Source: Caldimonas manganoxidans ATCC BAA-369 (GTDB taxonomy: Bacteria > Pseudomonadota > Gammaproteobacteria > Burkholderiales > Burkholderiaceae_C). Taken from it: DNA of 64,000 nt. The notes under the pieces were generated by a model that saw only the letters and a program-made list of their open reading frames with translations, was not told the DNA's origin and made no database searches. The stretch spans positions 1 to 64,000 of the forward strand of contig NZ_KB905937.1 in NCBI RefSeq assembly GCF_000381125.1, in the 5' to 3' direction. Shown here one piece after another: positions 27,945 to 31,481 of the stretch. Positions within the stretch are counted from its first letter, which is position 1, and each line of letters starts with the position of its first letter. The translations under genes were made by a program, and so were the position numbers.

Positions 27945-28937
27945 ATGAAACGCCTCACCCGCCGCGGCCTGTGTCTGGCCGCTCTTGCGCTGGCTTGTGC
28001 GCCCGGCCTGCAGGCCCAGTCGGCCTGGCCCACCAAGCCGGTGCGCATCGTCGTGCCCTTTGCCCCGGGCGGCACCACCGACATCTTGGCGCGTGCGCTG
28101 GCCCCCGAGCTCAGCCGGGCCTTCGGACACACCTTCGTGATCGACAACAAGCCTGGCGCCGGCGGCAATCTCGGCGCCGCCGAAGTGGCCCGCGCCGCGC
28201 CCGATGGCTACACCTTCCTGATGGGCACGGTGGGCACGCACGGCATCAATGTCTCGCTGTATGACAAGCTGCCCTATGACCCGGTGCGCGACTTCGCCCC
28301 CGTGACCTTGGTGGCCGCCGTGCCCAATGTGTTGGTGATGAATCCGGCCAAGGCGGCGCAGTACAAGATCGACTCGGTGCCCGATCTGATTCGCTATGCG
28401 CGCGCCCATCCGGGCCAGCTCAACATGGCCTCCAGTGGCAACGGCACGTCCATCCATCTGTCGGGCGAGTTGTTCAAGACCATGACCGGCACCTTCATGG
28501 TGCACTTTCCCTACCGGGGCTCCGCGCCAGCCTTGACCGATTTGATCGGCGGCCAGATGGACTTGATGTTCGACAACCTGCCGTCCTCGATGCCGCACAT
28601 CAAGGCCGGCAAGCTCAAGGCCCTGGCCGTGACCAGCGCGCAGCGATCCCAGGCGCTGCCCGAGGTGCCCACGATTGCCGAGGCCGGTCCGCTCAAGGGG
28701 TACGAGGCCACCTCCTGGTTCGGGCTGTTGGCCCCTGCGGGCACACCGGCCGATATCATCCACCGCCTACAGCAGGAAACCGCCCGAGCCCTGGCCAACC
28801 CGGCGATCAAAGAGCGGCTGCAGTCGCAGGGCGCCATTCCCAGTGGCAACACCCCGGCGGAATTCGCCCGTCTGATCGATAGCGAGATCAAGAAATGGGC
28901 GGCCGTGGTCAAGGCCTCCGGAGCGAAGGTCGACTGA
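27945..28937 (+). CDS. Bug/TctC family periplasmic solute-binding protein
   Basis: A 330-residue protein with a Sec signal ([19 protein letters not shown], cut near LQAQS). The mature part opens [20 protein letters not shown], the family hallmark, with [18 protein letters not shown] next. These proteins bind carboxylates for tripartite tricarboxylate transporters or sensors. No tctAB genes are nearby, which is usual for orphan Bug proteins in Burkholderiales. The ligand is unknown. Confidence 0.92.
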
Positions 28938-28944
28938 CGAGCCC

Positions 28945-29550
28945 TCACCCCCGGGCCAGGCGGCGCTCGACGAAATCGAGCCGGTCCTGGCCCCAGAACA
29001 ATTCGCCCTCGATGACATAGCTGGGCGCACCGAAGACGCCTGCGGCGATGGCCTGTTGGGTGTTGGCTTCGTAGCGCTCGTGCGCCGCCTGGCTGTGGGC
29101 ATCTTCGATGCGCGAGGTCGGCAAATCGCTTTCGCGCAGCAGTGCCACGAGGACCGACTCATCGGCAATGTTGCGCTGCTCGGCCCACACGGCCCGCGTG
29201 ATGGCCGCCACCAGCCGCATCGCGGCCTCGGTCCCGTCTTTCTGGTCCACGGCCACGATGAGCTTGGCCGCATCATCCCCGGCCACTGGAAAGTAGGCAG
29301 GCTCGGGATGGATGGGAATGTTCAGATACTCGCCAAATCGCTTGAGCTCCAGCAATCGATAGGCTTGGCGCTGGGGGGCCCGCTGCTTGAGCGGCACACC
29401 GCCCGAGACCGGGAAGACCTTGCCGCCGAGATCCATCGGCAGCACGCGGATCGTCGCGCCATGGCGCTTGGCCATGTCCCAGAAGCGCAGATGCCCCAAA
29501 TAGACATAGGGTGACTGCGGAGCGAGATAGTAATCAACGATCAAGGGCAT
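28945..29550 (-). CDS. DsbA-family isomerase (2-hydroxychromene-2-carboxylate isomerase-like)
   Basis: A 201-residue thioredoxin-fold protein. The start VDYYLAPQSPYVYLG carries Ser in place of the CxxC of DsbA, as in 2-hydroxychromene-2-carboxylate isomerases (NahD), and GVFGAPSYVIEGELFWGQDRLDFVE is the conserved cis-Pro/C-terminal signature. Those enzymes are glutathione-dependent and act in aromatic degradation; no such pathway genes are adjacent. The ATG at 29550 is chosen for family fit. Confidence 0.85.
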   Translation of the reverse strand: MPLIVDYYLAPQSPYVYLGHLRFWDMAKRHGATIRVLPMDLGGKVFPVSGGVPLKQRAPQRQAYRLLELKRFGEYLNIPIHPEPAYFPVAGDDAAKLIVAVDQKDGTEAAMRLVAAITRAVWAEQRNIADESVLVALLRESDLPTSRIEDAHSQAAHERYEANTQQAIAAGVFGAPSYVIEGELFWGQDRLDFVERRLARG

Positions 29551-29639
29551 GGGGACACCCTCCACAGAGGCCGTGCCCGCCACTGTAAGCCAGACGCCCG
29601 GCCCGCGCCGCCGTGCCTTCGCCAGCCCCCCAGGGCCGC

Positions 29640-30362
29640 TCAAGATCCCGGATCTGGCGCAAGCGCCTCCTGCGCAATGGCCTCACGCAAGGCCTCGGGC
29701 AGCTGCGCGCGCAACGCCGCCAGGCGCGCCTGACGCGCCTGCGGGTCCAGCGAGGGGTCGCGTGCGACGAACGCAGCCTCCATGAGCAGACGCCCGTGGC
29801 GCAAGTCCTGACCGAACAGGGCCTCAGCGACCTCGTCCCCAAAGTGCCGGCGCTGCACGGCCTCCATCTGCGCGAAAAAGGTCTGTGCGTCCTGCCAGCT
29901 GGCAGGAATGCCCAGGCGCTGGTACTCGGCTCGCATGTCCTTCAGATAGGCCCGGTAGCCCTGCACCAAGGCCAGGGCCTGTTGCGCATCGGCCGCCGGC
30001 AAACCGTCGCGCAGGGTCCATTCCAGCCGCTCGAGGTCTTCGGCGCTGGGTTCGTCGGACCACTGGGCCAGCAAGATCTCCAGCGCATCGCGAGTGTGTG
30101 CATCGATCAACAACCCGCCGGCATAGCCGATTTCGAACAAGCGTGCCGCATCCACGGTCAGACCCATGAGATCGATGGGCTCACGCATGCCCGGCAGGTC
30201 CGCGGCGCTGCGTTCCGCCGCCGGCCCGCCCGCTGCCGCAGCATGGGGCGATGGCCCTGCCGGCTGCGAGGGGGCAGCCTGCCAAGGGGCCAGAACGATG
30301 GCCGCCGTCGCCCACAGTGCGGCCGCCAGCAGCCAACCGAGAGTGCGTCGAGAAATCCGCAT
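29640..30362 (-). CDS. Lipase chaperone (foldase)-like protein, divergent
   Basis: A 240-residue protein with one N-terminal membrane anchor (TLGWLLAAALWATAAIVLAP). The rest is helical and follows the order of lipase-specific foldases (Lif/LipB): a GGLLID segment, a leucine-rich helix and a C-terminal RRHFGDEVAEALFGQD segment like the Lif RRxxxGxEAAxALFG. The normal signature RxxFDYxLSAxGE is not conserved; the aligned stretch reads RDALEILLAQWSDE. It is shorter than typical Lifs (about 280-340). It is divergent from the PETase-like gene, the only candidate client here. Confidence 0.65.
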   Translation of the reverse strand: MRISRRTLGWLLAAALWATAAIVLAPWQAAPSQPAGPSPHAAAAGGPAAERSAADLPGMREPIDLMGLTVDAARLFEIGYAGGLLIDAHTRDALEILLAQWSDEPSAEDLERLEWTLRDGLPAADAQQALALVQGYRAYLKDMRAEYQRLGIPASWQDAQTFFAQMEAVQRRHFGDEVAEALFGQDLRHGRLLMEAAFVARDPSLDPQARQARLAALRAQLPEALREAIAQEALAPDPGS

Positions 30363-30398
30363 GGGTGCATCCTGCGCCACCACCGGCTCGCCAAGCTT

Positions 30399-30430
30399 CA
30401 GGGATTGCCCTGAACCGGGGTGAGCCCCGG
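30399..30430 (-). promoter_or_regulatory. Two small hairpins in the leader of the foldase-like gene
   Basis: CAGGG-ATTG-CCCTG (30399-30412) and CCGGGG-TGAG-CCCCGG (30415-30430) are back-to-back perfect inverted repeats 37-68 bp upstream of the foldase-like start codon. They could fold in its 5' UTR; no T-run follows. Confidence 0.35.
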
Positions 30431-30500
30431 GAGACAGGACCTTCCCGCATCCTTGGGAAAACCCGCGGCAGCAAAAAAGACGGGTGTGCAATTATGGAAA

Positions 30501-30514
30501 TGCACGGCCGTGCA
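30501..30514. promoter_or_regulatory. Perfect 14-bp palindrome between foldase-like and PETase-like genes
   Basis: TGCACGGCCGTGCA is a perfect palindrome in the 240-bp divergent region, 88 bp before the PETase-like start codon. Size, symmetry and place suit an operator for a dimeric repressor such as a LacI- or TetR-type protein; no such regulator gene is in the window. Confidence 0.5.
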
Positions 30515-30602
30515 CTTCAAGGGGATGACCCCGAGTCGAGCCCACGCTGCGCGTGGACTCCCGCCGTGTGCAGCACTCGTACCACAACCTTCGGAGACAC
30601 CC

Positions 30603-31481
30603 ATGAGCCCATCGACCCTCTCAACAATCCTGCTGGCCGCCTGCGCCGCGCTGGCCGCACCGGGCCTGGCCCAGGCGCAGTATCAACAAGGCCCCGATCC
30701 CACGGCTTCGGCCTTGGAACGCAACGGGCCGTTTGCCATCCGCAGCACCTCGGTGTCGCGCACCTCGGTCAGCGGCTTCGGCGGCGGACGCCTGTACTAT
30801 CCGACCGCCAGCGGCACCTACGGCGCCATCGCGGTGTCGCCCGGGTTCACCGGCACGTCCTCGACCATGACCTTCTGGGGCGAGCGCCTGGCTTCGCACG
30901 GCTTCGTCGTGCTGGTGATCGACACCATCACCTTGTACGACCAGCCCGACAGCCGCGCCCGTCAGCTCAAGGCAGCACTGGACTACCTGGCCACGCAGAA
31001 CGGCCGCAGCAGCAGCCCGATCTACCGCAAGGTCGACACCAGCCGCCGCGCCGTGGCCGGCCATTCGATGGGCGGCGGCGGCTCGCTGCTGGCCGCGCGC
31101 GACAATCCCAGTTACAAAGCCGCCATCCCGATGGCACCCTGGAACACCTCGTCCACGGCCTTCCGCACGGTCAGCGTGCCCACGATGATCTTCGGCTGTC
31201 AGGACGACAGCATCGCCCCGGTGTCCAGCCATGCGATCCCGTTCTACAACGCCATTCCCAACAGCACGCGCAAGAACTATGTCGAGATCCGCAATGACGA
31301 CCACTTCTGCGTGATGAACGGCGGTGGGCATGATGCCACGCTGGGCAAGCTGGGCATCTCGTGGATGAAGCGCTTCGTCGACAACGACACGCGCTACAGC
31401 CCCTTCGTCTGCGGCGCGGAATACAACCGCGTGGTCAGCAGCTACGAGGTCTCGCGTTCGTACAACAACTGTCCGTACTGA
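30603..31481 (+). CDS. PETase-like polyester hydrolase (cutinase-type dienelactone/alpha-beta hydrolase)
   Basis: A 292-residue secreted enzyme. The signal peptide (residues 1-26, cut near LAQAQ) leads into a mature part closely like IsPETase. The nucleophile is S155 in GHSMGG, with D202 (QDDSIAP) and H234 (NDDHFC). C199 and C236 match the active-site disulfide C203-C239 of IsPETase, and C270/C290 the C-terminal one. W180 matches W185, and M156 matches M161. Differences: H154 for W159, F235 for S238, F82 for Y87, and H210/F214 where IsPETase has S214/I218. It should cleave ester bonds of polyesters or cutin-like polymers. An SD GGAG precedes the ATG. Confidence 0.92.
   Translation: MSPSTLSTILLAACAALAAPGLAQAQYQQGPDPTASALERNGPFAIRSTSVSRTSVSGFGGGRLYYPTASGTYGAIAVSPGFTGTSSTMTFWGERLASHGFVVLVIDTITLYDQPDSRARQLKAALDYLATQNGRSSSPIYRKVDTSRRAVAGHSMGGGGSLLAARDNPSYKAAIPMAPWNTSSTAFRTVSVPTMIFGCQDDSIAPVSSHAIPFYNAIPNSTRKNYVEIRNDDHFCVMNGGGHDATLGKLGISWMKRFVDNDTRYSPFVCGAEYNRVVSSYEVSRSYNNCPY

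Follow-up and report, generated by a model that had tools for sequence, protein, structure and literature searches.

What does a short protein resembling a lipase foldase do next to a polyester hydrolase of the PETase family? The question is raised by a stretch of 64,000 nucleotides from Caldimonas manganoxidans ATCC BAA-369 (contig NZ_KB905937.1, positions 1 to 64,000; hereafter, the window), in which two such genes lie head to head (Table 1). The answer that we favor, with a probability of roughly two in three, is that the enzyme is a secreted serine polyester hydrolase, CtPL, with two predicted disulfides, and that its neighbor is a dedicated truncated-foldase partner acting as a periplasmic helper.

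Table 1 Features of the PETase locus, in window coordinates
Feature	Position	Strand	Basis
TctC-type solute receptor	27945..28937	+	PF03401
DSBA-fold protein directly after the partner	28945..29643	-	
Short lipase-foldase-like protein (partner), 240 aa from the probable start ATG 30362; frame open to 30491	29640..30362	-	PF03280, Foldseek, AF2 model, hydropathy
Intergenic region of the divergent pair, with 240 bp separating the start codons; putative promoter region	30363..30602	.	Locus geometry
PETase-family polyester hydrolase, 292 aa, CtPL or near-identical Caldimonas orthologue	30603..31481	+	ORF (start ATG 30603, stop 31481), PDB match, Pfam, alignment
Catalytic Ser155 codon (GHSMG)	31065..31067	+	Aligns to IsPETase S160
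Additional disulfide pair, C199 (31197-31199) and C236 (31308-31310)	31197..31310	+	Aligns to IsPETase C203/C239
Catalytic Asp202 codon	31206..31208	+	Aligns to IsPETase D206
Catalytic His234 codon	31302..31304	+	Aligns to IsPETase H237
C-terminal disulfide loop C270-C290, 19 residues between the cysteines	31410..31472	+	Alignment

Identity and class of the enzyme

The enzyme matches the Pfam family PETase (PF12740) with 361.2 bits against a cut-off of 28 (E 4e-108), and a phmmer search of the PDB returned 8IAN (E 3.1e-178), 8IBI (7.4e-178), and 8IBJ (5.8e-176), all named 'PET hydrolase'; the E values for PF12740 and 8IAN show that the match is not due to chance. According to PMC10991172, the three entries represent CtPL-DM of Caldimonas taiwanensis. 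Over residues 26-292, the window enzyme and 8IAN differ at positions 26, 29, 208, 210, and 214 only. Unlike the window enzyme, 8IAN carries the changes H210S and F214I, which are engineered (PMC11219463), and an altered N-terminus; the differences at 26 and 29 lie near this N-terminus, which the CtPL authors changed, and S208F may be a species difference. Entries 8IBI and 8IBJ contain additional engineered changes. The numbering of CtPL is the same as that of the window enzyme, as can be seen from S155, W180, N181, and F235 (PMC10991172) and from H210 and F214 (PMC11219463). Judged by its sequence, the window enzyme is essentially the published CtPL and, by itself, is not new, given that crystal structures and engineered versions exist; a published list of candidate enzymes includes WP_062195544.1 of C. 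taiwanensis as Dh6 and WP_019560450.1 of C. manganoxidans as Dh7 (PMC10547765).

In the alignment, S155, D202, H234, C199, C236, W180, H154, F235, H210, and F214 all occupy the positions at which the initial annotation had placed them. The marks of a PETase include the S155/D202/H234 triad, the GHSMG version of GxSMG, and an aromatic clamp formed by Phe at position 87 and W180. The mature enzyme has four cysteines, which align with both disulfides of IsPETase and are predicted to form the same bonds, and a six-residue loop stretch, whereas type I enzymes have one disulfide and no extended loop. In the type II scheme, an extra disulfide lies near the active site and the beta8-alpha6 loop is three residues longer than in TfCut2 (Joo 2018, PMC5785972). 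We judged this extension against the two-cysteine and actinobacterial rows of our alignment: NGGGHD of the window enzyme aligns without gaps to SGNSNQ, compared to three residues in most of these rows. Subsite II, which combines Trp with Phe/Tyr in type IIa and with Ser/Thr in type IIb, consists of H154 and F235 in the window enzyme, so that F235 fits type IIa and H154 replaces the Trp, and neither residue of the type IIb pair is present. At the level of sequence, then, the type II marks (extra disulfide and extended loop) are joined to the His/Phe pair of type I, in line with the earlier description of a disulfide-bearing PETase with a type-I-like subsite II. CtPL has been characterized as a thermophilic type IIa enzyme that is exceptional for its His/Phe (PMC11219463), and Dh5-Dh7 are reported to share a Met and to possess a subsite II that is partly of type I despite the extended loop (PMC10547765).

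Two other suggestions of the initial annotation call for qualification. The C-terminal disulfide loop is indeed four residues longer than that of IsPETase (19 against 15), but 19 residues are found also in BurPL, the Aquabacterium enzyme, G006, and the two-cysteine enzymes of L011 and L070-L074, so this length is common, and it is IsPETase and the G243 enzymes L064a/b that stand out by their short loop. As for the proposed 'intermediate' placement, a phylogeny of 32 rows unites CtPL and the Aquabacterium enzyme in a clade with support of 100/99, but the position of this clade relative to the IsPETase/BurPL/gamma, actinobacterial, and two-cysteine L065 groups is drawn as an open fork.

The neighboring gene encodes a short foldase-like protein

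The initial annotation makes no mention of this neighbor. The predicted layout of the partner comprises an N-terminal hydrophobic stretch, a linker, mini-domain 1, and the first part of the helical arm, with no mini-domain 2. Its match to PF03280 (Lipase_chap) scores 56.6 bits against a cut-off of 25.7 and covers only profile positions 3-102 of 192, the C-terminal ~100 residues of the lipase-specific foldases being missing. In a set of 31 distinct foldase-like rows, the match is followed by 0-15 residues in 12 (5 in the window partner) and by 81-117 in the other 19, which are full-length. A hydrophobic 19-mer near the N-terminus, with a mean hydropathy of 1.93, is a predicted membrane anchor.

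An AlphaFold2 model of the partner, built from four alignment rows, has a mean pLDDT of 74.3; in residues 71-230, the block means are 85-97, with one at 78, and the linker is of low confidence. The predicted fold is foldase-like: Foldseek matched the model to 2ES4_E (E 4.3e-5), 9G8U_B (1.4e-4), and 2ES4_D (5.6e-4), with query TM-scores of 0.48-0.58, and only foldases were found below E 0.001. A profile of 27 short partners, when compared to the PDB, recovered 9G8U (residues 24-190 of 302), 2ES4_D (40-227 of 332), and the MD1 structures 6GSF and 5OVM. The same search yielded two uteroglobin-fusion chains (E 4e-4) and calmodulin (0.55), weaker and unrelated matches that we attribute to chance.

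The foldase MD1 motif is given as RXXFDY(F/C)L(S/T)A (PMC7046727). Its FD[YF] core occurs in none of the 33 short proteins. Among 18 full-length foldases, FD[YF] is present in 9, RXXFD[YF] in 5, and the exact motif in none; loss of RXXFDY as a mark of the short class is weakened accordingly, with the core kept in only half of the full-length proteins.

A promoter scan of the intergenic region produced one weak sigma-70-like match, on the minus strand at 30520-30491. Inspection by eye showed no CxxC in the DSBA-fold protein encoded directly after the partner; C. caldifontis retains the start of this protein (L003 1-414). The family of the solute receptor gene that lies beyond it includes terephthalate receptors.

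Conservation and arrangement of the gene pair

A short foldase-like ORF lies beside the PETase in 27 of 28 proteobacterial loci, accompanying 32 of 33 PETase genes; when the four loci used for discovery and model building are set aside, the pairing is found in 23 of 24. The 33 genes comprise 22 strong matches (at least 229 bits, counting that of the window) and the split gene of G005, all obtained from 399 family genomes, together with G006, three further loci, and six gammaproteobacterial loci; shorter duplicates of the same places were excluded from the 28. PF03280 is the top family in all 20 further partners tested, 12 of which pass the cut-off and 8 of which fall below it, at 18.9-25.4 bits. 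The sole exception to the pairing is a PETase paralogue in G190 (L076 5001-5762, minus strand), which sits on a long branch and has Ala in place of both the clamp Trp and the Met that follows the serine.

The two genes are head to head in 10 loci, and in the other 17, the partner is downstream on the same strand. In the beta loci L011, L021, and L070, the first ATG of the partner is 12-30 nt past the PETase stop. An in-frame ATG follows at 13-16 nt in L071-L074, where an earlier ATG overlaps the end of the PETase and is a second candidate start. The distance to the first ATG is 46-91 nt in L075, L077, and L078 and ranges from 144 to 247 nt among the six gamma loci; in L079, the nearby starts are all GTG. 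The occurrence of the pair in two arrangements, across beta and gamma lineages, indicates more than simple retention of gene order. It thus argues against the notion that the already published enzyme, an ordinary described PETase, is all that matters and that the conserved gene order carries no mechanistic meaning, which we consider improbable. A dedicated partner is the reading that we favor.

No foldase-like ORF was detected in 15 actinobacterial PETase loci, a weak control because such absence is expected if foldases are proteobacterial, nor in the 18 loci (L046-L063, 2.4-3.7 kb each) that match PF12740 weakly. Conversely, when 299 family genomes were searched with the short-partner profile, scores of at least 188 bits were obtained in 9 genomes, each a PETase genome (the gene being split in G005), and every other match was below 158 bits. 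In searches of 399 order genomes, which scored only six first-look candidates per genome and may miss some, the window genome (G000) was the only one matched by the PETase profile and likewise the only one matched by the partner protein. Of 369 class genomes, those with a match to the PETase profile were G000 and two from another family, and among plasmids, five records contain a PETase relative, one of them proteobacterial.

In G1043, two tandem foldase-like ORFs follow one PETase (L086 3235-4893, minus strand). In C. caldifontis G005, the PETase is split over two contig ends (L003 1498-1761 and L007/L025 1-129, covering query residues 2-86 and 250-292), which may reflect an assembly gap or an insertion.

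Short foldases also occur without an adjoining PETase. Those of G163, G079, and G195 (L103, L104, and L105) each lie directly after an Esterase_PHB (PHB depolymerase-type) protein, and that of G003 (L081 4855-6764, minus strand) follows a hydrolase-like protein with no Pfam family above the cut-off; secretion of these four hydrolases was judged by eye. With such neighbors, short foldases as a class would have clients among ester or polyester hydrolases more broadly, beyond the PETases.

The IsPETase locus

The protein encoded at G085:C74 is identical to 6QGC at 290 of 290 residues, which identifies this as the IsPETase locus. Its short foldase-like ORF of 251 aa (L069:379-1134, minus strand) is head to head with the enzyme gene, 216 bp from the PETase start; the best NCBIfam model for it, lipase secretion chaperone, scores 95.5 bits, below the cut-off of 285. 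A contig of G373, 200,976 bp long and consistent with the Piscinibacter gummiphilus plasmid NZ_CP136337.1, carries an identical frame; on the plasmid, the NCBI name of the partner copy is 'lipase secretion chaperone'. On this plasmid (L092, NZ_CP136337.1 153507-172223), two IS1071 transposase genes lie close to the IsPETase-like gene and its partner, which hints that PETase loci may be mobile, and a second copy of the partner has no PETase seen beside it.

Parallel descent and selection

Enzymes and partners descend in parallel. Their tree distances are correlated (Mantel r 0.78, p 1e-4 for 28 pairs, and r 0.78 for the 22 beta pairs), a correlation that includes shared species history, and within G243 and G373, the enzymes of three paralogous pairs each stay with their own partner. 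The partner genes evolve under purifying selection, with dN/dS of 0.29, 0.24, 0.14, 0.33, 0.08 (the last at dS 1.4, near saturation), and 0.31 in six comparisons, against 0.02-0.15 in five comparisons for the PETases; the partner is constrained, if less tightly than the enzyme.

The loss of ~100 C-terminal residues together with the consensus motif could suggest that the partner is a functionless, truncated remnant of an old lipase-foldase pair. This is very hard to reconcile with the dN/dS values, with a frame that stays open across beta and gamma lineages, and with the uniformity of the short form, and we regard a remnant as highly improbable compared to a functional partner. A TAG inside the G094 partner match, considered as a sign of decay, proved to be the stop codon of an open frame and was dropped.

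Lipase and tannase-family genes of the same genome

Homology to lipase foldases, along with the NCBI name given to the gene at the Piscinibacter PETase locus, might also mean that the short foldase serves an ordinary lipase and that the PETase neighborhood is incidental. The window genome encodes a lipase-like protein (C16:40085-40993; 55% to the Aquabacterium one) that has only Abhydrolase_1 above the Pfam cut-off and that, from its sequence and its neighbor, appears to be of the LipA type. Directly after it lies a foldase of its own, full-length, with a Lipase_chap match that reaches 192 of 192 (pair at L134 6086-7948, plus strand), which disfavors a lipase-foldase role for the partner. This full-length foldase did not appear in the output of the short-partner searches, so that absence from that output does not amount to absence from the genome. 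Among 16 genomes searched with the lipase query, 11 yielded a match, and there was none at E 1e-8 in G085, G094, G249, G325, and G379, all of which possess a short partner. Given also that almost every proteobacterial PETase locus has such a partner, service to a lipase is a very remote prospect, no better than that of a remnant, and the PETase itself is the client that we favor.

The window genome contains one match for a tannase-family protein (L083 5180-6904, minus strand, on C11), for which MHETase gives the best PDB matches (E 4e-106). Its neighbors, an acyl-CoA synthetase, a crotonase-type enoyl-CoA hydratase, and an amidohydrolase, would make up a ferulate-type cluster, and with these neighbors, a feruloyl esterase is as likely as an MHETase. 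A PET-assimilation operon, which we considered, is not supported, the one tannase-family match being located in such surroundings.

Proposed role of the partner

Lif is a membrane-bound steric chaperone in which MD1 is essential, and helices of both mini-domains and of the arm touch the lipase (PMC7046727). By analogy, the partner, by virtue of its predicted N-terminal anchor, would be membrane-bound at the periplasm, where its mini-domain 1 and first arm helices would hold the newly exported PETase. It would aid the folding of the enzyme, along with its disulfides, or keep it in an export-competent state, and would then pass it to the secretion machinery. Several observations count against a helper: the partner lacks mini-domain 2 and part of the arm, the core motif is lost, the L076 paralogue is unpaired, and short foldases occur beside other hydrolases. 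Moreover, CtPL-DM produced without the partner in E. coli, as a thioredoxin fusion, is active (PMC10991172), so that the partner is not strictly needed for an active enzyme there; the Aquabacterium enzyme Dh5 is likewise active in E. coli supernatants (PMC10547765).

A negative regulator that binds the PETase in the periplasm and keeps it inactive until export would fit the lack of the activating motif and of mini-domain 2, and would find an analogy in the isolated P. aeruginosa MD1, which hinders the Lif-assisted activation of LipA (PMC7046727). The published effect, however, concerns assisted activation and not direct inhibition of the finished enzyme, and we see no evident reason why a polyester hydrolase should be kept in check in the periplasm. 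An inhibitor is therefore unlikely, even if it comes first among the alternatives, followed by a gene order devoid of meaning and then, on a par with each other, by the remnant and the lipase helper.

If the partner is a helper, the short foldases without mini-domain 2 may form a distinct class of dedicated secretion or folding helpers that assist the polyester hydrolases of proteobacteria, chiefly PETases but also PHB-depolymerase-type esterases. IsPETase would then have been studied without its natural partner, the supply of which would improve periplasmic folding or secretion. We put this broader proposal forward tentatively, as possible but somewhat short of probable.

In the open-access literature, we found no paper that links PETases with lipase chaperones or foldases. 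The search for a chaperone pairing turned up a paper on mcl-PHA with a lipase/chaperone cluster; Danso 2018 contains none of the terms 'chaperone', 'upstream', 'adjacent', and 'gene cluster', and the term 'chaperone' does not occur in a 2017 structure paper. The pairing of a PETase with a short foldase is thus the new part, akin to the known lipase-foldase pairs, and homology-based annotation of such genes as 'lipase chaperone' pre-exists. If meaningful, the pairing points to a natural PETase helper, including one for IsPETase, that is absent from the open-access papers searched. It would carry steric-chaperone biology beyond lipases to polyester hydrolases, and it raises the question of what a foldase without mini-domain 2 is capable of.

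Comparison with known systems

With the Lif proteins (Burkholderia glumae 2ES4, Acinetobacter 9G8U, and P. aeruginosa MD1 6GSF), the partner shares the predicted anchor, the linker, mini-domain 1, and the first part of the arm. In contrast to them, it lacks the rest of the arm, mini-domain 2, and an FDY-type motif, and is encoded beside a PETase instead of a lipase.

Among the enzymes, a close relative is Dh5 from an Aquabacterium MAG, which we equate with L008 on the basis of organism, groundwater source, and the Leu and Met residues. It is 70% identical to the window enzyme, is its sister in the tree, has Met at the N241 position, and is accompanied by a divergent partner; it differs in subsite II, with Leu where the window enzyme has Phe. 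Activity on PCL and PET is reported for Dh5. In the same screen, the wild-type enzymes Dh6 and Dh7, assayed as E. coli supernatants and precipitates, neither cleared PCL nor produced a signal on PET, their expression being unconfirmed by the authors (PMC10547765). With amorphous PET, the reported product release by CtPL-DM from E. coli at 60 degrees C exceeds that by IsPETase at 30 degrees C about sevenfold (PMC10991172).

IsPETase of Ideonella sakaiensis, a type IIb enzyme, has W159, S238, S214, and I218 where the window enzyme has H154, F235, H210, and F214, and N241 in place of M238; its C-terminal loop is the shorter one. The two enzymes have in common the catalytic triad, the clamp Trp (W185 in IsPETase), both cysteine pairs, and the extended beta8-alpha6 loop, and the two loci are alike in that the enzyme gene is head to head with a gene for a short foldase-like protein.
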